Positions 6,388-53,725 of a stretch of DNA of 64,000 bases are shown in pieces. A program made the position numbers and the translations under genes. Numbering within the stretch: the stretch's first letter is position 1; every line of letters starts with the position of its first letter. The notes under the pieces are model-generated. The model worked only from the letters and a program-made list of their open reading frames with translations, made no database searches and was not told the DNA's origin. Origin of the DNA: Shouchella rhizosphaerae (GTDB taxonomy: Bacteria > Bacillota > Bacilli > Bacillales > Bacillaceae_D); the NCBI RefSeq assembly GCF_900142675.1, contig NZ_FRBS01000007.1, forward strand, positions 1 through 64,000. The letters are read 5' to 3'.

Positions 6388-6684
6388 TCATAAAGCCAAT
6401 GCTTGTTGCAGCACTTTTTTTCCATCCATCGTCCCATAAGCAATTGAATCGATAACAGCGACTTTAATGCCATGGGGTTCTGCCTTTTTGGTAATTTTGT
6501 TTTCCAAATAGCGTACTTGCGGTCCAATTAAAATGACGTTTGTCGTGTCTAGCTCATTAGCCAACCCTGCTTCAGCCGTTGCCGTAATTGTGGCGTGTAC
6601 TTCTAATTCTTCAGCTGCTTTTTTCATTCTATCAACAAGCATGCTTGTTGACATTCCAGCAGAGCAAACGAGTAAAATATTCAT
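6388..6684 (-). CDS. chbB: PTS lactose/cellobiose-family IIB component
   Basis: 98 residues. It begins MNILLVCSAGMSTSM; Cys7 in the CSAGMST loop is the phosphorylation site of IIB-Lac/Chb proteins. It takes phosphate from IIA and passes it to the sugar moving through IIC. The start at 6684 follows GAGGAGCG. It is the last gene of a four-gene unit read GH4-IIC-IIA-IIB, and the IIA stop lies 2 bases before this start. The gene name is given by analogy: the GH4 enzyme plus ChbG next door favour N,N'-diacetylchitobiose over cellobiose, but either is possible. Confidence 0.88.
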   Translation of the reverse strand: MNILLVCSAGMSTSMLVDRMKKAAEELEVHATITATAEAGLANELDTTNVILIGPQVRYLENKITKKAEPHGIKVAVIDSIAYGTMDGKKVLQQALAL

Positions 6685-6685
6685 A

Positions 6686-7018
6686 TTAACGACGCTCCTC
6701 AGCAAATTTTTCGTGTAGTTCAATGATTTCCAAGCAAAGCTCTTTCGTTGTCATTGATGTCATTAAATGGTCTTGGGCGTGGATTAACAAAAGAGAAGGG
6801 GCAACTTGATCGCCTCTAGCCTCGCTTTGCAGCAAATTCGTTTGTGCATGGTGGGCTTGGTAGAATTCGTTGTCTGCTTGTTCGAGACGTTCGTGCGCTG
6901 CTGCAAATTCTCCTTTTTTCGCTAGCTGGACTCCCTCCATCGCAAATGAACGGGCGTTTCCTGAATGAAGGATGATTTGAAACGAAATTTCCTCAAGAGG
7001 CTTTTGTTGTGCCGTCAT
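6686..7018 (-). CDS. chbA: PTS lactose/cellobiose-family IIA component
   Basis: 110 residues, all-helical IIA-Lac type. LLLIHAQDHLM (77-87) contains the conserved His pair of the active site (H80 and H84). It carries phosphate from HPr to the IIB protein encoded next. The start at 7018 lies inside the 3' end of the IIC gene (26-base overlap), with GGAGATAC just ahead, so translation is probably coupled to IIC. An alternative start eight codons upstream lacks a better ribosome site. Confidence 0.88.
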   Translation of the reverse strand: MTAQQKPLEEISFQIILHSGNARSFAMEGVQLAKKGEFAAAHERLEQADNEFYQAHHAQTNLLQSEARGDQVAPSLLLIHAQDHLMTSMTTKELCLEIIELHEKFAEERR

Positions 7019-8306
7019 CGCCAGTATCTCCTTTGTCATCAAAATTCTTTTGTTCGGCTCTCATTGCTGCTTTTATAAATGGAATATAAAAAATAGTCGC
7101 AAGTGTGATGTTAAAAAGCTGGAGCACAACGCCAGCAAATGACCCACCTGTCACCAAATAGCCGCTAATGAATGGCGGCGTCGTCCACGGGACAAGCGCA
7201 ACAGTCCTTGGCACAAGTCCGCTGGCAATAGCGAGATAGGACGTGAGTGTTAAAAGTACGGGAACCGTTAAAAATGGGATGAGCATCACGGGATTTAGCA
7301 CGACAGGCAAGCCGAATAGGACGGGCTCATTAATATTAAACACCCCTGCTGGCGCTGATAATTTCCCAATCGTTCGATAATGTTTGGACGCGTTTACAAG
7401 AAAGATAGCGGCTATTAAGGCAAGTGTCGTACCTGATCCGCCCATAAACACATAGGCATCTAAAAATGGTTTCGTTACAATGTAAGGGACATCGGATGCA
7501 CTAGTGCCTTCTGCAAATAGACGAATGTTCTCTTCGAGCAAAGGAAGGTAGATCGAATCGATGATGGGTCCTAAGATGTTCGTGCCGTGCAAACCGAAGA
7601 ACCAAAGCAGTTGATTCAAAAAGGTAATAATAAATGCGGCAGGTAGCGTATTTCCTAATGCTTGCAATGGTTGTTGAATGACGGCAAAGACGAGTTCGTG
7701 AATGCTGCCGTCTGTTAGCGCTGTAATCAACATTTGCAGGCTGGAGACGACAATGAGAGTGACAGCAGCTGGTATAAGGGCCCGGAAGGATTTAACAACG
7801 CCAGTCGGGACGCCTTCAGGCATGTTAATGGTGAATTTTGAGTGATACAAAAGCCTGAAAAGTTCCGTTACAAGAACAGCCGTTAATACACCGACAAACA
7901 GACCTTGCGCTCCCGTCCAGGCATAGGAAAGGCCCCAATCATCGGTCGTTGGCGTCAGAATGATATAGCAGCCAACAGCAAGAAGTGCAGCAGACAGAGC
8001 ATCGACATCATAAGACTTAGCTAAATTGTAACTAATTCCTGCGACAACAAGCAATGAAAGGATCGCAAACGACCCATCCCAGATGTTGCCGCCAAGCGTT
8101 GTCCAGCTTTCGCCGAACAGATCGGCCATAAAGTTTTGGAAAAACGCAATGGGCAAATTGTTAATCAAGACAGCAAATGAGCCAATAATGATTAACGGCA
8201 TGATCGCGACAAAACCGTCGCGAATCGCAACTAAGTGACGTTGTGAACCGATCCGTCCCGCGATCGGAATAAAATGTTTCTCCATCCACTGCATCACTGG
8301 ATTCAT
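6993..8306 (-). CDS. chbC: PTS lactose/cellobiose-family IIC permease
   Basis: 437 residues, about ten membrane helices, the usual size of CelB/ChbC/LicC. N-terminal MNPVMQWMEKHFIPIAGRIG and the GLHGTNILGPI segment are characteristic, as is FNINEPVLFGLPVVLNP near residues 320-336, which forms the substrate region. It moves the disaccharide across the membrane while it is phosphorylated. The start overlaps the stop of the GH4 gene by four bases (8303-8306), so the two are translationally coupled. The sugar is inferred from neighbours, not from the permease sequence. Confidence 0.9.
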   Translation of the reverse strand: MNPVMQWMEKHFIPIAGRIGSQRHLVAIRDGFVAIMPLIIIGSFAVLINNLPIAFFQNFMADLFGESWTTLGGNIWDGSFAILSLLVVAGISYNLAKSYDVDALSAALLAVGCYIILTPTTDDWGLSYAWTGAQGLFVGVLTAVLVTELFRLLYHSKFTINMPEGVPTGVVKSFRALIPAAVTLIVVSSLQMLITALTDGSIHELVFAVIQQPLQALGNTLPAAFIITFLNQLLWFFGLHGTNILGPIIDSIYLPLLEENIRLFAEGTSASDVPYIVTKPFLDAYVFMGGSGTTLALIAAIFLVNASKHYRTIGKLSAPAGVFNINEPVLFGLPVVLNPVMLIPFLTVPVLLTLTSYLAIASGLVPRTVALVPWTTPPFISGYLVTGGSFAGVVLQLFNITLATIFYIPFIKAAMRAEQKNFDDKGDTGDDGTTKAS

Positions 8307-45954: not shown

Positions 45955-46205
45955 CAAAGCAACCCCTTTCTGTATCAACTTCCAGGTGTGGCTCTACAAT
46001 GCTAGTATACACATCCTCTGTTTTCGAAAAACCTTGTGAGCAAAACTTACATAGGGCTATAGGGTGGTGCAGTCATTTGCTTGTAGTTTGCGGTAATTTT
46101 TGAAGAGTGTTACGTAACTTGAAATCGCGATGTGACCGAATTGTAATAGTATGAAAATGACAACTAAGAAAATGTACGTTAGAAATCTTAACAAAAACAC
46201 TTGTG

Positions 46206-46219
46206 TAAAAGCGCTTTCT
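46206..46219 (+). promoter_or_regulatory. cre-like box of the yhf operon
   Basis: TAAAAGCGCTTTCT, 12 of 14 matches to the CcpA consensus, placed between the presumed -35 and -10. Confidence 0.5.
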
Positions 46220-46234
46220 ATGATAATGTTTCAT

Positions 46235-46255
46235 TGTACAAAAAACAGTATATTG
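46235..46255 (+). promoter_or_regulatory. Candidate YhfZ operator, copy 1
   Basis: TGTACA, 8 bases, TATATTG. The same arrangement occurs in reverse orientation at 47203-47223 and 53334-53354. It lies at the presumed transcription start and 13 bases before the yhfZ ATG, a position suited to self-repression. Confidence 0.6.
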
Positions 46256-46267
46256 GTGGAGGTGAAC

Positions 46268-47185
46268 ATGAACGAAGCACTTCTGTCAAAAAAAGGGAAA
46301 ACATTACTAAGAGTTGCGTCCCTGTTACTCACGATTGAGAAAGGCCAACGGATTCCGAAAGTCGAATCTTTAGCACAAGAACTAAATGTAGGACGAGGCA
46401 CTATACAAAGTTCTTTAAAAATACTGGAAGAAGCGAAGGCGATTGAGCTTTTGTCCCGTGGTCACTTGGGCACATTCCTGTTACAGAAAGATGTCTCGAA
46501 ATTATTGGAGTTTGCTGGTGTCAACACGATTACGGCGGTTATGCCTTTGCCGTACTCGAAAAAATACGAAGGCTTGGCGACCGCTCTGACGACTGTTTTC
46601 CATAACATGGGCATTCGCTTAAACCTTGCCTTCATGAGAGGAAGCAACCCGCGCCTTGAAGGAGTCAAAGAAGGACGCTATGATTTTGCCGTTGTTTCGT
46701 TTATGGCTGCCAAAAATGCCGTAGAAAAGGCAAACATCACGATTGAAAAAAGGCTAGGCGCCCAATCTTATGTCAGCAAGCATAAAATCTATTTTGCTGA
46801 CAGCGACAAAACCGAAATTGAAGATGGCATGAGAATCGGTATTGACTCAAAATCGGCTGACCAAAGAACGTTAGCTGAAGCGGAAGCACAAGGAAAGAAG
46901 GTAACATTTGTAGAAACGACGTACATGCACTTGCTGCAAAGTCTAGAAGCTGGATTGATCGATGCGACCGTGTGGAATGCAGATGAAGTGCAGCGCCCGA
47001 CACTTTATGCAAAAGAACTTACTTCTTCTCTTGCAGTCAGAAACTCGCAGGAGATTAGTGAAACGGCGCTTGTGGCCCATGGAGATAAACAAACGATTTC
47101 TTATTTGTTAGGATTAATAGACAAACAAGAACTGTTAACGATCCAGAAGCAAGTCGTTGAAGGGGAGATCATTCCTTCTTATTAG
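46268..47185 (+). CDS. yhfZ: YhfZ-type GntR-like transcriptional regulator
   Basis: 305 residues from the ATG at 46268 (GGAGGTG five bases ahead). The N-terminal winged helix (about 20-75: RIPKVESLAQELNVGRGTIQ) is of YhfZ/GntR kind. The remainder resembles a periplasmic-binding-like ligand domain (FDFAVVSFMAAKNAVEK-type stretch, DATVWNADEVQR), the usual YhfZ C-terminus. It heads the operon and probably controls it; three copies of one operator candidate are found in the locus. The effector is unknown. Confidence 0.85.
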   Translation: MNEALLSKKGKTLLRVASLLLTIEKGQRIPKVESLAQELNVGRGTIQSSLKILEEAKAIELLSRGHLGTFLLQKDVSKLLEFAGVNTITAVMPLPYSKKYEGLATALTTVFHNMGIRLNLAFMRGSNPRLEGVKEGRYDFAVVSFMAAKNAVEKANITIEKRLGAQSYVSKHKIYFADSDKTEIEDGMRIGIDSKSADQRTLAEAEAQGKKVTFVETTYMHLLQSLEAGLIDATVWNADEVQRPTLYAKELTSSLAVRNSQEISETALVAHGDKQTISYLLGLIDKQELLTIQKQVVEGEIIPSY

Positions 47186-47200
47186 GAACTTTCCTTCACA

Positions 47201-47223
47201 TTCAATATACAAAAAAATGTACA
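47201..47223 (-). promoter_or_regulatory. Candidate YhfZ operator, copy 2
   Basis: CAATATACA, six A, TGTACA between yhfZ and yhfY, just ahead of the yhfY ribosome site. All 23 bases are identical to copy 3 at 53332-53354. Extended by one base it is an imperfect palindrome (AATATACA/TGTACATT). Confidence 0.6.
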
Positions 47224-47244
47224 TTATATTAAGGAGGGTTGAAG

Positions 47245-47592
47245 ATGGAATTGTATACACGTTTGCAGATTTTAAAAGAAGCAGGAACGATCACGGACAA
47301 AGCATACCGTGTCACCACCCAAGTAGTGGACGAGCAAGTTCCTGACCACTTGCATGAGAATTATGCAATGTTAGTGACCCATTTGGCAATGGCGTTGACA
47401 AGAATTGAACAGAACGAAGCGTTGACTGGTCCAGGGGATGCCGTTATGGAAGAAGTCCTTGCTTCCCCACATTTGCCTGCTGCTAAGGAGGCCGTCGAAA
47501 AAATTGAATCCCTTGTTGGCGAACCGCTCCCTAAAGAAGAACAGCAGTTTCTCTATATGCATTTTGTCAGCACATTTTCGTCTGTTTCATAA
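47245..47592 (+). CDS. yhfY: PRD-domain protein YhfY
   Basis: 115 residues, a single PTS-regulation-domain-like helical bundle. THLAMALTRI (about 45-54) has the His expected in PRDs, and FLYMHFVST near the end gives a second. There is no DNA-binding part. PRDs are phosphorylated by PTS proteins, so this could tie the pathway to PTS status; whether the His are used is unknown. AAGGAGGG precedes the ATG at 47245. Second gene of the yhf operon. Confidence 0.8.
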   Translation: MELYTRLQILKEAGTITDKAYRVTTQVVDEQVPDHLHENYAMLVTHLAMALTRIEQNEALTGPGDAVMEEVLASPHLPAAKEAVEKIESLVGEPLPKEEQQFLYMHFVSTFSSVS

Positions 47593-47643
47593 GGAAAGCA
47601 GTATAGTGAGAAATTAAACCAAAAACTAAAGGAGTGTTTTTCG

Positions 47644-47997
47644 ATGAAAATTGTTATTGGCGGCCAAGTAGAAAAGAAGGAAATAGAGAAATTAATTAAA
47701 GAGAAGAATCCTGATATTGAAACCGTTGTCAAGTCTGATCTAGAAGCAGCGATGCTGCTCAAACAAGGCCAAGCAGATTACTATTTTGGCGCATGCCATA
47801 CTGGGGGCGGCGGTGCTTTGGCGATGGCGATTTCGTTGGTTGGCAAGGCAAGCTGCCACACGATTTCGATGCCTGGGAAACCACCTGTGAAAGAAAAAGT
47901 TGAACAAGCCGTGCAGGAAGGCGGCAAGGCATTTGGCTTCACCGGCGATCATAAAGAAAAAGCGGTCGAATATTTACTCGATGCGTTAAAAGCTTAA
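47644..47997 (+). CDS. yhfU: YhfU (DUF2620) protein
   Basis: 117 residues, small alpha/beta protein starting MKIVIGGQVEK. A glycine-rich loop GACHTGGGGALAMAISLVG (about 49-67) with Cys and His next to it, and a second Cys-His pair (SCHTISMPG), are conserved-looking. The family is always found with YhfT and is of unknown function; the loop looks like a phosphate- or nucleotide-binding site. AAGGAG precedes the ATG. Confidence 0.85.
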   Translation: MKIVIGGQVEKKEIEKLIKEKNPDIETVVKSDLEAAMLLKQGQADYYFGACHTGGGGALAMAISLVGKASCHTISMPGKPPVKEKVEQAVQEGGKAFGFTGDHKEKAVEYLLDALKA

Positions 47998-48022
47998 TAT
48001 AAAGAGCTAACGGAGGGATACC

Positions 48023-49318
48023 ATGGTAGATGTAATTTTGCTCATTGCAATCGGTGCGCTAAGCGCAGTGATGGCCAATTTAGGAATCGCCGTTTTTAAT
48101 GATGGGTTGCGCCCAATTGTACCAGAGAACTTGGAAGGGCGCATGTCACGGAAGGAATTAGGAGTAACCGCATTTGCAATGAGCTTTGGGCTTGTCATTG
48201 GTTTCGGCATTCCTATATCTATTGCTGGCAGCATTATTTTGATCCATAGCATTTTGCTAGGAACGGATATCATTGGTCTGTCAATCGCAAGAGGCAAATT
48301 TTCCACAATGGCAGCAGGTGTGTTAGGGGGACTTTACGGAGCAGGCATCTATTATGGGCTTCAAGTCGTTGTTGATTTGTTTGCTCGCTTGCCGCTGAAC
48401 TTTGTAGATGGCTTCAATTTGGTTGGCGAACCGGTTGTTGTGGCCTTTATGGTCTTCCCAGCGATTGCTGTTGCTTTGCAGTTCTCTGTCAAGAAAGGGG
48501 TTGTCACGTTTTTGGTGGCAGCGCTTGCCCGGCAGCTGATTGTATTTTCCAATGAAAAAGGCCTTATTGAAATTGGTGGTTCATCGGTGACCCTTAGTCC
48601 GGAAGGGATTGCCCTCGTTGTAGGAATGGTGTTTTTAATGGCGTTTGCCATGCAGGAAAAATCGGATGACACAAGCATGGAACAAATGGCGACATTGTTT
48701 GTCGACCGGGTGAACCGGATTAAAAAGTTTGCAGTTGTGCTCATGGCATCAGGTGCGTTGCTTGCTGCAGCTGCAAATTTGTTAATTGTATCTGGAGATC
48801 CGATCACACTGAATTTGCTTGCAGATGGCCGGATTAATGAGGGAGGCATTGCCGCACTAGCGAAAGCACTTGGCTTTGTGCCACTCATTGCCAGCACCGC
48901 TATTGCTACAGGCGTATATGGTCCAGCCGGGTTTACACTCGTTTTTGCTGTTGGTATCTTTTCGCCAAACCCGTTTATTGCCGCGGCGATTGGTGCGATT
49001 GTGATCTTGCTTGAAGTCCTGCTGTTATCAAAGTTAGCGAAGTTTCTTGACCGTTATCCAGGCGTGCGTGCTTCTGGGGAAAATATCCGTACCGCGATGA
49101 CACGTGTTCTTGAAGTAGCATTGCTCATCGGCGGCGCCAATGCGGCAAATGCGATTGTCCCTGGATTTGGCTTCTTTGCCATCGCCGGATTTTATTTACT
49201 AAACGAAGCCGGAGGCCGCCCAATTGTACGGATGGCAGTAGGCCCTGTTGGCGCGATAGCTGTTGGAATTATTGGCAACATCTTAGCCTTATTAGGGATT
49301 TTCACGCCACCAGCATAG
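48023..49318 (+). CDS. yhfT: YhfT-type polytopic membrane protein
   Basis: 431 residues and 11-12 hydrophobic segments. It opens MVDVILLIAIGALSAVMANL and contains several Gly/Ala-rich helices, for example GKFSTMAAGVLGGLYGAGIY. This is the transporter candidate of the yhf cluster; it is not related to any transporter family I can name. YhfU (small, soluble) and YhfT (membrane) encoded side by side recall a two-part permease. GGAGGGAT before the ATG. Confidence 0.82.
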   Translation: MVDVILLIAIGALSAVMANLGIAVFNDGLRPIVPENLEGRMSRKELGVTAFAMSFGLVIGFGIPISIAGSIILIHSILLGTDIIGLSIARGKFSTMAAGVLGGLYGAGIYYGLQVVVDLFARLPLNFVDGFNLVGEPVVVAFMVFPAIAVALQFSVKKGVVTFLVAALARQLIVFSNEKGLIEIGGSSVTLSPEGIALVVGMVFLMAFAMQEKSDDTSMEQMATLFVDRVNRIKKFAVVLMASGALLAAAANLLIVSGDPITLNLLADGRINEGGIAALAKALGFVPLIASTAIATGVYGPAGFTLVFAVGIFSPNPFIAAAIGAIVILLEVLLLSKLAKFLDRYPGVRASGENIRTAMTRVLEVALLIGGANAANAIVPGFGFFAIAGFYLLNEAGGRPIVRMAVGPVGAIAVGIIGNILALLGIFTPPA

Positions 49319-49333
49319 AGGAGAGGAAAAACG

Positions 49334-50254
49334 ATGATTGAAACGGTGAGGGGACCGATTAAGCCCGAAGAACTTGGCATATGTGCTTGCCATGAGCATG
49401 TCCATATTGATTTAAGCCATATTAAAAAGTCTAATGACACCGCATTAACCGATTATGACCGTGTAAAAGAAGACGTAGCCCGTTTTATTAAAGCCGGCGG
49501 AAAAGCCTTTATTGAAATGACCAATGTCGGCATGGGGCGGAACATTCAATTTATGCGGCGTTTATCTGAAGAGCTCGATATGCATATTGTGGCCAGTACA
49601 GGCTGTTACAAAGACCCGTTTATTCCGGCGGAGGCCCTTTCATGGAACCGGGAGCAATTTGCAGCGTTTATGTTGCAAGAGATTGAGGAAGGCATTGATG
49701 GTTCTCCAAGCAAGCCCGGTGTTATTGGAGAAATCGGCAGCAGTTTAAATGAATTCAAACCAGTGGAGACAGAGTTGTTTCATGGGGCAATCATTGCAGC
49801 GAAGGAGAGCGGTTTGCCGTTGGCCACACATACCACATTGGGGACAATGGCGCTTGAGCAAGTCGAGCTGTTCGCTAAGGAAGGGTTGCCGCTCGACCAA
49901 GTAATTATTGGGCACCAAGATTTAAATGAAAACGATGACGTGGTGCTTGAAGTCCTAGCAGCTGGCTGTTACGTCGCTATGGATACGATTGGCAAAGAAA
50001 ATTACCGTTCTGATCAGGAACGTCTCACTTCGCTGTTGCGCTTTATCGAAGCAGGCTATGGGGACAAAATTATGTTATCCACTGATATCACAAGAAATTC
50101 CCACCTTTTTGCTGCCGGCGGGCAAGGCTTTGATTACACGCTACGGGAGTTTCAACCGAGAATGGAAGCGTCTGGGCTGTCGCAGCAGGAAATACGAAAA
50201 CTTTTGATTGAAAACCCAGCAAACGCGTTTTCAAAGAGGGAAGGGACATCATGA
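49334..50254 (+). CDS. php: Phosphotriesterase homology protein (Php/YhfV)
   Basis: 306 residues, amidohydrolase-superfamily barrel. Metal ligands: CHEHVHIDL (HxH at 20-24 region), the bridging acid in GVIGEIGSS, His in ATHTTLG and in IIGHQDLN, and the late Asp in MLSTDITRN. A Glu in place of the carbamylated Lys of true phosphotriesterase is typical for E. coli PHP. It is probably a lactonase or esterase acting on a phosphorylated or acyl substrate. The stop overlaps the yhfS start (50251-50254, ATGA). Confidence 0.88.
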   Translation: MIETVRGPIKPEELGICACHEHVHIDLSHIKKSNDTALTDYDRVKEDVARFIKAGGKAFIEMTNVGMGRNIQFMRRLSEELDMHIVASTGCYKDPFIPAEALSWNREQFAAFMLQEIEEGIDGSPSKPGVIGEIGSSLNEFKPVETELFHGAIIAAKESGLPLATHTTLGTMALEQVELFAKEGLPLDQVIIGHQDLNENDDVVLEVLAAGCYVAMDTIGKENYRSDQERLTSLLRFIEAGYGDKIMLSTDITRNSHLFAAGGQGFDYTLREFQPRMEASGLSQQEIRKLLIENPANAFSKREGTS

Positions 50255-51357
50255 AATACAGCGAGGCACTGTTGGAAAATCGGTCAATGGAAGAAGCGCA
50301 GTCTCTTCAATTTAAAATGGTCGATGAAATAACAAAAGAGTTTACCGACAACGAATTTTATCAACTTGGCGATGTCGGGCTGCATCCTGATTTTGGGCGC
50401 CCGCAAACCACAGCTAAAGCAGAGCGTGTGTTAGCTCAAGTATTTGACAGCGAAGCTTGTGCACTTGTCCGTGGTAGCGGCACAGGGGCGATTCGCCTCA
50501 TTTTAGCGGAATTAGTGGCAGCAGGCGATACATGCCTTGTTCATACAGCGCCAATGTACATGACGACAAAAGAAACATTTCGGCAGCTTGGACTGAAGCA
50601 AGAAGCGGTTGACTACAATGATCTTTCTGCTTTTAAAAGCGCCGTGGCTGCTACAGAAGCAAAGCTCGTTTATGTCCAACATGCACGTCAGGCTCCTCAT
50701 GATACGTATCAGCTTGGTGAAGTCATTGAAGCGGCGAAAACGATACGTCCTGATTTGCCAGTCGTAGTCGATGACAACTATTGCGCCTTCAAGATGCCAA
50801 AAATCGGCTGTGAATATGGCGCGGATTATTCGACTTTTTCTGGTTTTAAATTGCTTGGGCCAGAAGGGATTGGCGTTATTGTTGGAAAAGCAGCAGCGAT
50901 TGAACGCCTCCATGCCCGCAATTATTCAGGAGGGGGCCAAGTACAAGGCCATGAAGCTCATGAGCTGTTACGGAGCTTGACGCTAGCGCCAGTCATGTTG
51001 GCGACGCAAAATGAACAAGTCGAAGAACTTTATCAACGTATTAAAAATGGTGCTTTGCCTGGAGTCGAAGATGTTTACATGGTCAATGCCCAGTCTAAAA
51101 ACGTGATGATTGAGCTTGCTGAACCGATTGCGAGCCAAGTCATTGCCAACGCGGCCCGTCTTGGTGCAGCCACCTATCCAGTCGGCGCGGAGTCCCGTTA
51201 TGAGTTGGCCCCAATGGTGTACCGTCCATCTGGCAGCTTTAGGGAAGCAGATCCAAAGTTAGAAAAGCATGGCCTGCGTGTTAACCCGATGAAATCAAGT
51301 GCAAGCACTGTTCTGCGCATCTTACACTTGGCTGTGAAAGAAGCACAGAAAGGATGA
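50251..51357 (+). CDS. yhfS: YhfS-type PLP enzyme (aminotransferase fold)
   Basis: 368 residues, fold type I PLP enzyme. RGSGTGAIRLILAELVAAGD is the phosphate-cradle region (about 70-89); VVVDDNYCAFK the aspartate that holds the ring nitrogen; the Schiff-base Lys is in DYSTFSGFKLLGPEG. Resembles cystathionine-lyase/L-threonine-aldolase relatives more than classic aminotransferases. Four-base overlap with php. The reaction is unknown; two PLP enzymes in a row suggest amino-acid chemistry. Confidence 0.85.
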   Translation: MKYSEALLENRSMEEAQSLQFKMVDEITKEFTDNEFYQLGDVGLHPDFGRPQTTAKAERVLAQVFDSEACALVRGSGTGAIRLILAELVAAGDTCLVHTAPMYMTTKETFRQLGLKQEAVDYNDLSAFKSAVAATEAKLVYVQHARQAPHDTYQLGEVIEAAKTIRPDLPVVVDDNYCAFKMPKIGCEYGADYSTFSGFKLLGPEGIGVIVGKAAAIERLHARNYSGGGQVQGHEAHELLRSLTLAPVMLATQNEQVEELYQRIKNGALPGVEDVYMVNAQSKNVMIELAEPIASQVIANAARLGAATYPVGAESRYELAPMVYRPSGSFREADPKLEKHGLRVNPMKSSASTVLRILHLAVKEAQKG

Positions 51358-52527
51358 ATGCAAGAGATGTTTACTAGCATGATCGCTAAGCGTAACCCGA
51401 AGTTGGTGGAAGCAGCCGTCTGCCTTCATCAAAGCGGAGCTCTTGCGCCTAATACCCATTTAATCGATCTCGATGCGCTTGAACGAAATGCCGCCATTCT
51501 TGCGAAGACAGCGGAAGAATATGGCATGACGCTGTATTACATGACGAAGCAGATCGGCAGAAGCGGCTTTGTCGGCAAACACATTGAGAAAAGCGGCATT
51601 CACAAAGCTGTTGCTGTCGATATCGATGAAGCAATTCAACTAAAGGACGGCGGCTGTGCGATCGGCAACTTAGGGCATTTGGTCCAACCTGGCAAAAACC
51701 AATGGCCATTTGTGTTAACAGATATGAAACCGGAAGTCGTCACGCTCTTCTCACTTGAACGGGCTAAACAATTAAATGAAGCCGCTGTGCAAGCAGGAGT
51801 AGTACAAGACGTTATTGTCCGTGTTATCAGCAAAGGAGATTGCGTTTTTCCAGGCCAATATGGCGGCTTTTTATTGGAAGAATTGCCTGCAGCAATCAAA
51901 GAGTTAACGGCATTAACAGGAATTCGCTTAATCGGTGTGACGAGCTTTCCCGTTTTAGCGTATACCGCTGGAGACAATAGCTACCATTATGCAAGCAATG
52001 CGCAAACGATTGTCAAAGCCGTCGGTCTTCTCCAACAAGCTGGAGTGGAAGTGAAGCATGTGAATACGCCAAGCGCCACGAGTGTAAATACAATCCCAAT
52101 GCTTAAACAACTTGGCGCAACACACGCAGAGCCAGGCCATGCCCTTACTGGTACAACGCCGTTGCATGCCTACCGCGAGGATTTAGCTGAGCTGCCGGCT
52201 ATGGTGTATGTCTCTGAAATTTCTCACCAGGACCAAACCCATGCTTATACGATTGCTGGGGGATTTTACCCACGCTCAAATATGGCTTATGCGTTTTACG
52301 GTGATTCACCTAAGACGATTTTCAATAAAGCGGAAGTCGATCTCGTTTCACCTGGCAATATTGATTATTATGGTGCATTGAAGCGTGAACAGGGAATGCA
52401 GACAGGTGATACGGTTGTGTATGCTTACCGTTCACAAGTGTTTGTGACCCGTTCCCACGTTGCCTTTGTCAGAGGTGTGGCAAACGGCAAGCCGGTTATC
52501 GTCCATCAGCAAAAAAGGGGGATGTAG
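51358..52527 (+). CDS. yhfX: YhfX-type PLP enzyme (alanine-racemase fold)
   Basis: 389 residues, fold type III PLP barrel plus C-terminal beta domain. LIDLDALERNAAIL then LYYMTKQIGRS holds the cofactor Lys in place of the usual K in alanine racemase. HVNTPSATSVNTIPML and GATHAEPGHALTGT form the phosphate-binding side. The ATG follows the yhfS stop directly (TGAATG); an ATG 9 bases later is also possible. Racemase or decarboxylase; the substrate is unknown. Confidence 0.85.
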   Translation: MQEMFTSMIAKRNPKLVEAAVCLHQSGALAPNTHLIDLDALERNAAILAKTAEEYGMTLYYMTKQIGRSGFVGKHIEKSGIHKAVAVDIDEAIQLKDGGCAIGNLGHLVQPGKNQWPFVLTDMKPEVVTLFSLERAKQLNEAAVQAGVVQDVIVRVISKGDCVFPGQYGGFLLEELPAAIKELTALTGIRLIGVTSFPVLAYTAGDNSYHYASNAQTIVKAVGLLQQAGVEVKHVNTPSATSVNTIPMLKQLGATHAEPGHALTGTTPLHAYREDLAELPAMVYVSEISHQDQTHAYTIAGGFYPRSNMAYAFYGDSPKTIFNKAEVDLVSPGNIDYYGALKREQGMQTGDTVVYAYRSQVFVTRSHVAFVRGVANGKPVIVHQQKRGM

Positions 52528-52531
52528 CTAT

Positions 52532-53725
52532 ATGGGAAAAGCAACGTTGCTCGTGTTGGATGGCTTTGGTGTTGGCGCAATGGCAGATTGCCGTGAAACC
52601 AAACCAGAAGACATCCACGCCTCCACATACGCCCATCTACAGGAAACCGTCGGACTAAATTTGCCTACGCTCATGAAAATGGGCTTAGGAAAAATCGTCA
52701 ACAATGAAGGCGAAGCCATTGCCGCTTATGGCAAAAGCAAACTTGCCCATCACGGAGCGGATACATTTATGGGCCACCAAGAACTAATGGGGTCGAAGCC
52801 AGGAAAACCAGCTAAGCGCCTCATGAAAGACGTTGGGCAGCAAATCGCCGACGGTTTAATCGCAAATGGGTACCATGTAGAAGAACTAATCGAAGGCAAG
52901 CCGATTTTGCTAGTTGACGGCGCTGTCGTCGTAGGAGACAATTTAGAGTCGGCACTCGGCAATATCATTAATATGACTGCTGATTTAACCCAAATTTCCT
53001 TTGAAGCGGCAACAAAGATGGCTGCTGTAGTCAGAAAGCATGTGGATACAAGCCGTGTGATTGTATTTGGAAACGAGTCTGTGCCGCTGACAGACATTGT
53101 AGCCGCGGCAGAAGAAGGGAAACCAGGCCAGTGGGGCATTAATGCGCCTAAAACAGGTGTATACGGCGAAGGGTATCAAGTGCTCCATTTAGGTTATGGC
53201 GTGACATTTGAAAAGCAATTTGCCTATTTGGCCGAACAAGCAGGAAAGCCAGTTTATCGAATTGGCAAAACAGCGGATGTTATTCAGGCGCAAGGCTTTG
53301 CAAACCCTGTCGTCCATACGCCTGAATTGCTTTCAATATACAAAAAAATGTACAATGAAGCGGAAGAAGATGCTGTTTTCCTCGTGAATGTCCAAGAAAC
53401 TGACTTGGCCGGTCATAAAGAAGATCCGTCATGGTATAAAGAAGTGCTTGAAACGGTCGATCATTTTTTGGCTGAGTTTTTGCCGACACTGGCAGAACAC
53501 GACCTACTTATCGTTACAGCCGACCATGGAAATGACCCGACTTGCGGCCACTCCCAACATACGAGGGAGCACACCCCTATACTCGTATATGGAAAACAAG
53601 TTCAGCCAGTATGTTTAGGTGTTCGAGACACGATGGCCGATATTGCGGCGACACTAAGTGACTTTACAGGCGTACAAACGCCCGAATTTGGTACAAGTTT
53701 CTTGCCGGAATTAACGGGGAAGTAG
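52532..53725 (+). CDS. yhfW: YhfW phosphopentomutase-like enzyme
   Basis: 397 residues from the ATG at 52532, which gives the natural start MGKATLLVLDGFGVGAM. Alkaline-phosphatase superfamily, phosphopentomutase branch: metal Asp in LVLDGFG, TFMGHQELMGSKP with the phospho-acceptor Thr, QETDLAGHKED, and TADHGNDPTCGH near the C-terminus. It probably moves or removes a phosphate on a pentose-like compound. Last gene of the operon. It carries a 23-base copy of the operator candidate in its coding sequence (53332-53354). Confidence 0.87.
   Translation: MGKATLLVLDGFGVGAMADCRETKPEDIHASTYAHLQETVGLNLPTLMKMGLGKIVNNEGEAIAAYGKSKLAHHGADTFMGHQELMGSKPGKPAKRLMKDVGQQIADGLIANGYHVEELIEGKPILLVDGAVVVGDNLESALGNIINMTADLTQISFEAATKMAAVVRKHVDTSRVIVFGNESVPLTDIVAAAEEGKPGQWGINAPKTGVYGEGYQVLHLGYGVTFEKQFAYLAEQAGKPVYRIGKTADVIQAQGFANPVVHTPELLSIYKKMYNEAEEDAVFLVNVQETDLAGHKEDPSWYKEVLETVDHFLAEFLPTLAEHDLLIVTADHGNDPTCGHSQHTREHTPILVYGKQVQPVCLGVRDTMADIAATLSDFTGVQTPEFGTSFLPELTGK
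53332..53354 (-). promoter_or_regulatory. Candidate YhfZ operator, copy 3 (inside yhfW)
   Basis: All 23 bases identical to 47201-47223, within the codons for SIYKKMY of yhfW. A match of this length in unrelated coding sequence is not expected by chance. It may allow looping with the promoter copy 7 kb upstream, or act as a roadblock. Confidence 0.55.

Follow-up and report, generated by a model that had tools for sequence, protein, structure and literature searches.

A candidate operator occurs three times in the yhf operon of Shouchella rhizosphaerae, within the stretch of 64,000 nucleotides analysed here (positions 1 to 64,000 of contig NZ_FRBS01000007.1; the window). The operon has eight genes in the order yhfZ, a PRD-domain gene, yhfU, yhfT, php, yhfS, yhfX and yhfW, with the regulator gene yhfZ at its head. 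We think it rather probable that the three copies are operators of YhfZ, of which site 1 would repress the promoter, site 2 would act as a roadblock to RNA polymerase and site 3 would serve as an auxiliary operator. The sites are as follows.

46232-46255, no strand: site 1, candidate operator at the presumed yhfZ transcription start; score 25.9; an upstream site is found in 64 of 69 yhfZ loci.
47203-47226, no strand: site 2, candidate operator between the yhfZ stop codon and the following gene; score 25.5; 46 of the 69 loci have a site behind yhfZ; not preceded by a good promoter.
53334-53357, no strand: site 3, candidate operator within the yhfW coding sequence (SIYKKMYNE codons); score 23.1; at the same codons in four relatives (L066, L067, L068 and L070); assessed by codon nulls.

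Each copy is a 24-bp imperfect palindrome, (C)AATATAC-N8-GTATATT(G), with 7-bp arms, an 8-bp spacer and one flanking base per side. A preliminary description of the window had placed the copies at 46235-46255, 47201-47223 and 53332-53354, where they are indeed present, and its pattern matches exactly at these three sites and nowhere else in the window. Its distinction between a forward and a reverse form falls away, as every copy is a palindrome. The 23 identical bases that it had noticed in sites 2 and 3 are there in the window sequence, and its view that chance would not produce them is borne out. With up to 3 mismatches, this 23-mer occurs in the whole genome (4.24 Mb) at two places, sites 2 and 3 themselves, and its backward control occurs at none.

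Looser patterns were dismissed as evidence. With 3 mismatches the preliminary pattern is not enriched in the window (22 matches vs 18.9 expected), nor is the core pattern alone across the genome (34 places forward vs 66 for the backward control). It is a matrix from other genera (24 positions, 60 distinct sites, no Shouchella genome included) that sets the three sites apart. On it they score 25.9, 25.5 and 23.1, and the next-best place in the 64 kb scores 8.9. When the 34 core-pattern matches of the genome are scored over 22 bases, the three sites are at the top (24.2, 23.0 and 20.2) and the next has 17.6. Among 13 places picked by eye from 35 listed in the L070 genome, the operon's three likewise come first (26.7, 24.2 and 22.8) and the next has 17.5. 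As a side observation, the fourth-best of the 34 matches (G000:C7:270508-270529) has the same core in another genome, G001, at C1:2296035.

Conservation and the likely binder

A YhfZ_C match above the cut-off is present in 5 genomes of the genus (13 searched), 6 of the family (41 searched), 35 of the order (sample of 397) and 22 of the class (sample of 398); each count includes the genome of the window. The first locus set, with genes mapped, comprised 55 fetched stretches together with those of Shouchella tritolerans (L066) and S. clausii (L067), 57 loci in all. The YhfZ proteins of the latter two are 98% identical to that of the window, which places the window in their group. Two loci, L103 and L104, have a yhfZ-like gene without the operon.

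The non-coding DNA before and after yhfZ in the 57 loci contains one common palindrome, the same as in the window. By mismatch count (at most 3 in 14 positions), it lies upstream in 49 of the 57 loci and in the gap behind yhfZ in 37, and 200 permuted palindromes used as the upstream control reached 4.1 loci on average and 36 at the highest. A further set came from 398 genomes sampled from the phylum, 12 of which, besides the window's own, have YhfZ at E 1e-30 or better. At these 12 loci outside the window's class, none of them in the matrix, the upstream site is present in 10 and the site behind yhfZ in 9.

Over all 69 yhfZ loci, an upstream score of at least 15 is reached in 64 and a score of at least 12 behind yhfZ in 46, although 53 of the 69 fed the matrix, so their counts are not independent. 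All the 46 have both sites. The motif is thus found where the preliminary description had wanted to see it in relatives, at the promoter and in the yhfZ-yhfY gap, and sites 1 and 2 have the look of an ancient operator. In L137 and L144 yhfS is the first gene mapped beyond yhfZ, and even there a site lies behind yhfZ. In L089, L102 and L121 the upstream site lies instead 1.15-1.18 kb further up (31.4, 34.3 and 22.8).

Some loci have further operator-like sites. L072 has them at -325, -206, -43, +1027 and +1034 from the yhfZ start (oriented) and L074 at -323, -42, +1028 and +1035, each with an overlapping pair behind yhfZ. In L145, whose recognition helix reads TGSGTVQ, variant sites with GCATTCTG arms are at +1031 and +1149. 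In L124 an operator-like site (6621-6644) precedes an open reading frame (6676-7758, amidase-like by eye) ahead of yhfZ, and the Cetobacterium locus L132 has an annotated amidase within the yhf operon.

The palindromes might instead act as RNA hairpins near ribosome-binding sites, as sites 1 and 2 are presumably transcribed and close to start codons. We regard this as extremely improbable. The arms do not covary, with a fraction of 0.840 of cells paired vs 0.849 in shuffled arms (1746 of 2000 shuffles reach the observed level), and the gap sites alone give 0.863 vs 0.852 (536 of 2000 as high). The folding is ordinary (z 0.42, -0.78 and -0.93) and site 3 is far from any start codon.

YhfZ itself has HTH_41 and YhfZ_C domains above the curated cut-offs and passes the Pfam GntR model (31.3 bits, cut-off 27). 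One solved relative, 2OZZ, matches query residues 77-305. It is likely that YhfZ binds the sites, judging from their linkage, their position and a loose match between the recognition helix and the arms. The helix has Arg in 64 of the 69 loci, with readings of GRGTIQ or GRGTVQ. A strict rule pairing this Arg with TAC was rejected, as it is broken by L098.

In Escherichia coli K-12, whose YhfZ helix is SSVGLTQ, the two best matrix places in a 16-kb stretch score 10.1 each and the next 3.0; they have the same geometry with TTC/GAA arms. The members of this candidate E. coli operator pair (L123, 12349-12372 and 11007-11030) lie at the start of yhfZ and between yhfY and yhfX. In Cetobacterium (helix LSLGTIQ), TTATTTTC-N8-GAAAATTA follows a promoter-like stretch; it was picked out of 28 palindromes for its position. 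No clear site was seen at the YhfZ loci of Vibrio halioticoli and Microbacterium.

As binding by YhfZ is deduced from sequence, another factor encoded elsewhere might occupy the sites. This appears improbable. The three sites are the best of the 34 listed pattern matches in their own genome and all lie in the yhf operon. Moreover, the motif is found at yhfZ loci across the phylum sample, and in E. coli a different helix goes with different arms.

Probable selection on site 3 within yhfW

Site 3 lies in frame in yhfW and is present in the window and in all four genus relatives having YhfZ. At the same codons it scores 23.1 in L068, 24.8 in L066 and L067 and 25.7 in L070. L066 and L067 differ by a single synonymous change from TAC to TAT, which brings the site closer to the consensus. 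Site 3 is absent from the 58 yhfW-holding loci among 65 non-Shouchella loci, as judged in the fetched stretches, and the top coding score in the mapped genes of the 65 is 12.8 (L081, yhfS). The scan covered 459,882 coding bases over the 69 loci.

Retention in L066-L068 has no power as evidence (P about 0.5) and was set aside. The most distant relative is L070, with 72% identity over the eight proteins. Between its yhfW and that of the window, 90 of 267 identical residues share their codon and 95 are expected if the codons are independent, so synonymous codons have been randomised. The L070 site is at full strength though 4 of its 9 residues differ from the window.

Three nulls were used with a score of at least 23. 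Synonymous encoding by the operon's codon usage gives P 0.0014 for the window peptide, computed after the site was seen, and 0.010 for the L070 peptide, where the site was set beforehand by the window. Codon shuffles of the eight genes reach the score in a coding region in 7 of 2000 cases. Substitution of codons between the window and L070, following the changes elsewhere in the operon (200,000 draws), gives P 0.00046, with few cases for some codons (11 for ATA). Hence, from the full strength at the same L070 codons and from these nulls, site 3 is probably selected, in line with the earlier suggestion that the yhfW copy is kept.

An alternative is that sites 1 and 2 are YhfZ operators and site 3 is an inert look-alike, spelled by the YKK(M/L)Y peptide with A-rich codons. 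The conserved peptide does yield TAC-N8-GTA with common codons, L066-L068 would keep such a site anyway with P about 0.5, and most intragenic PhoB sites of E. coli are reported to be inert, as well as weaker and not conserved (PMC10294691). Nevertheless, an inert copy is hard to reconcile with the full-strength L070 site, where residues are changed and synonymous codons randomised (P 0.00046 to 0.010), and the window uses the rare ATA (a fraction of 0.08 for Ile) and TCA (0.17 for Ser) there. We therefore regard an inert site 3 as unlikely, if well worth keeping in mind.

Selection on site 3 could also concern something other than the operon. Service to a downstream neighbour was rejected, as the 12.5 kb that follow the operon in L070 lack the genes found downstream in the window; because these neighbours differ, site 3 seems to serve the operon. 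Control of a promoter inside yhfW, sense or antisense, is mentioned for intragenic sites in other bacteria (PMC10294691). For yhfW it is very improbable, with no promoter-like match on either strand near 53300-53450 and a best sense score before the site of 2.8.

Operon, predicted promoters and proposed mechanism

The other features, all on the + strand, are listed here.

46201..46229, +: predicted promoter TTGTGT-17-TAATGT, weak score of 5.4, predicted from the consensus alone.
46268..47185, +: yhfZ, regulator with HTH_41 and YhfZ_C domains.
47245..47592, +: PRD-domain gene in the yhfY place.
47644..47997, +: yhfU (DUF2620).
48023..49318, +: yhfT.
49334..50254, +: php, phosphotriesterase family.
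50251..51357, +: yhfS, pyridoxal phosphate (PLP) enzyme.
51358..52527, +: yhfX, alanine racemase-like.
52532..53725, +: yhfW, metalloenzyme superfamily, which holds site 3.

In 48 upstreams, the distance from the end of the best predicted -10 box to the 22-bp core is 3 bases in 18 cases and 8 bases in 10. The promoter z against mononucleotide shuffles averages 1.75 in these upstreams and -0.05 in 37 gaps behind yhfZ, and the best promoter score before site 2 in the window is 4.5. Site 1 is thus placed like the site of a repressor that acts by steric hindrance, and site 2 mostly has no predicted promoter. Autoregulatory repressors have an operator around the start of their own gene; yhfZ has such a candidate, together with a predicted promoter.

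Near the yhf promoter, catabolite-type (cre-like) boxes with at most 1 mismatch to the consensus occur in 16 of 53 yhfZ upstreams, vs 1.7 expected from mononucleotide shuffles. Those of L066-L068 read GTAAAAGCGCTTTCT; the same letters are in the window at about 46205-46220, with 2 mismatches to the consensus.

In the proposed mechanism, a YhfZ dimer would read the 24-bp palindrome with one arm per winged helix. As site 1 is on the transcription start, YhfZ bound to it would block initiation and repress its own gene together with the operon, and this repression is likely. At site 2, bound YhfZ would stop RNA polymerase between the regulator and the enzymes, so that yhfZ could be read at a trickle with the enzymes off. 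We rank such a roadblock as more likely than an internal promoter because site 2 is behind the yhfZ stop codon and mostly without a promoter of its own.

Site 2 could instead control an internal promoter from which the enzyme genes are transcribed separately, with yhfZ and the rest forming two units of one operator each. Good predicted promoters do occur just before or in the gap site of L073, L076 and L108 (z 2.5 to 2.8), and in L090 the yhfY-U-T genes are about 6 kb away with a site (24.9) near them. The mean z over the 37 gaps and the low window score speak against it in general, which makes it a doubtful account of the operon as a whole, while an internal promoter may be what site 2 controls in certain lineages, namely those with good gap promoters.

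Site 3 would most likely be an auxiliary operator in the last gene, which either raises the occupancy of sites 1 and 2 by bridging or forms a second roadblock near the operon end. The bridging across 6 to 7 kb is the weakest part of this proposal. A distal site of comparable strength that is kept by selection is a feature of lac-type looping, and site 3 agrees with it on the evidence of one distant relative. The preliminary description had proposed looping or a roadblock by YhfZ. Its expectations on the motif in relatives and on the keeping of site 3 are supported and either mechanism fits, but phasing of sites 1 and 2 is absent. Tentatively, we entertain that in this genus YhfZ may tie the promoter and the regulator/enzyme junction to the last-gene site, making the whole 7-kb operon one repression loop with its distal anchor selected in enzyme codons; we would not expect this further step to hold.

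Several observations weigh against three YhfZ operators acting in this manner. Palindromes by themselves are common: the E. coli stretch has 19 places at which 7 or all 8 of the 8 pairs match. There is no upstream site within 160 bp in 5 of the 69 loci and none behind yhfZ in 23, and L135 and L145, with helices TGNGTVQ and TGSGTVQ, have no site near the yhfZ start. L098 has Asn for the helix Arg with a normal operator. The window promoter before site 1 scores low, and the good gap promoters in three loci are noted above. Helical phasing of sites 1 and 2 was not found over 37 loci with spacings of 963 to 1116 bp (Rayleigh p 0.12 to 0.54, six tests); operator phasing is expected mainly in short loops. 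As to site 3, it is lacking in L069 of another genus of the family, its test rests on one distant relative, the window's own P came after the sighting, and the substitution null is thin for some codons.

Meaning and comparison with known systems

The yhf operon ranges from E. coli to several classes of the window's phylum. We found no paper describing its regulation. A resistance screen names YhfZ a putative transcription factor (PMC12147183), E. coli yhfZ is in a BIME-related attenuator cluster (PMC2965389), and yhf genes appear in an expression table (PMC11728337) and in a riboswitch candidate table (PMC4448311). The yhf passages of these four papers describe no YhfZ operator. The preliminary description knew of none, and we also found none in the literature on YhfZ and the yhf genes, most subscription journals being outside the search.

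A precise operator makes YhfZ testable, including a search for its inducer. Two thirds of the loci keep the site at the regulator/enzyme boundary, which looks like a means to express the repressor with its operon switched off. With its evidence of codon selection, the candidate intragenic operator at site 3 offers a clean case in which to study the role of such sites.

Like other GntR-type winged-helix regulators, YhfZ passes the GntR and HTH_41 models and has a candidate palindromic operator at its own promoter. It differs in having its own C-terminal family (YhfZ_C) and arms of 7 bp that are 8 bp apart, whereas textbook GntR palindromes are shorter and more compact. The intragenic PhoB sites of E. 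coli are similar as binding-site sequences inside genes. They are reported to be mostly weaker and unconserved, whereas site 3 in yhfW scores like the other two sites and is retained in L070 (PMC10294691).

In layout the closest resemblance is to lac, with O2 (in lacZ) and O3, and to gal, with OI (in galE): one repressor, a promoter operator and auxiliary operators, one of them intragenic. The regulator family is different, and the auxiliary yhf site is 6-7 kb away in the last gene, vs about 0.4 kb and the first gene in lac and gal; yhf looping is a proposal. LacI reportedly forms a roadblock at O3 (PMC3711431). In LacI test systems, RNA polymerase can be halted by an operator that lies downstream of the promoter (PMC4132739 and PMC5477534), and site 2 would do so with YhfZ in place of LacI. 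The LacI roadblocks described there reach as much as 25-fold inhibition and combine readily with promoter control (PMC4132739), and looped LacI blocks RNA polymerase more strongly (PMC5477534).

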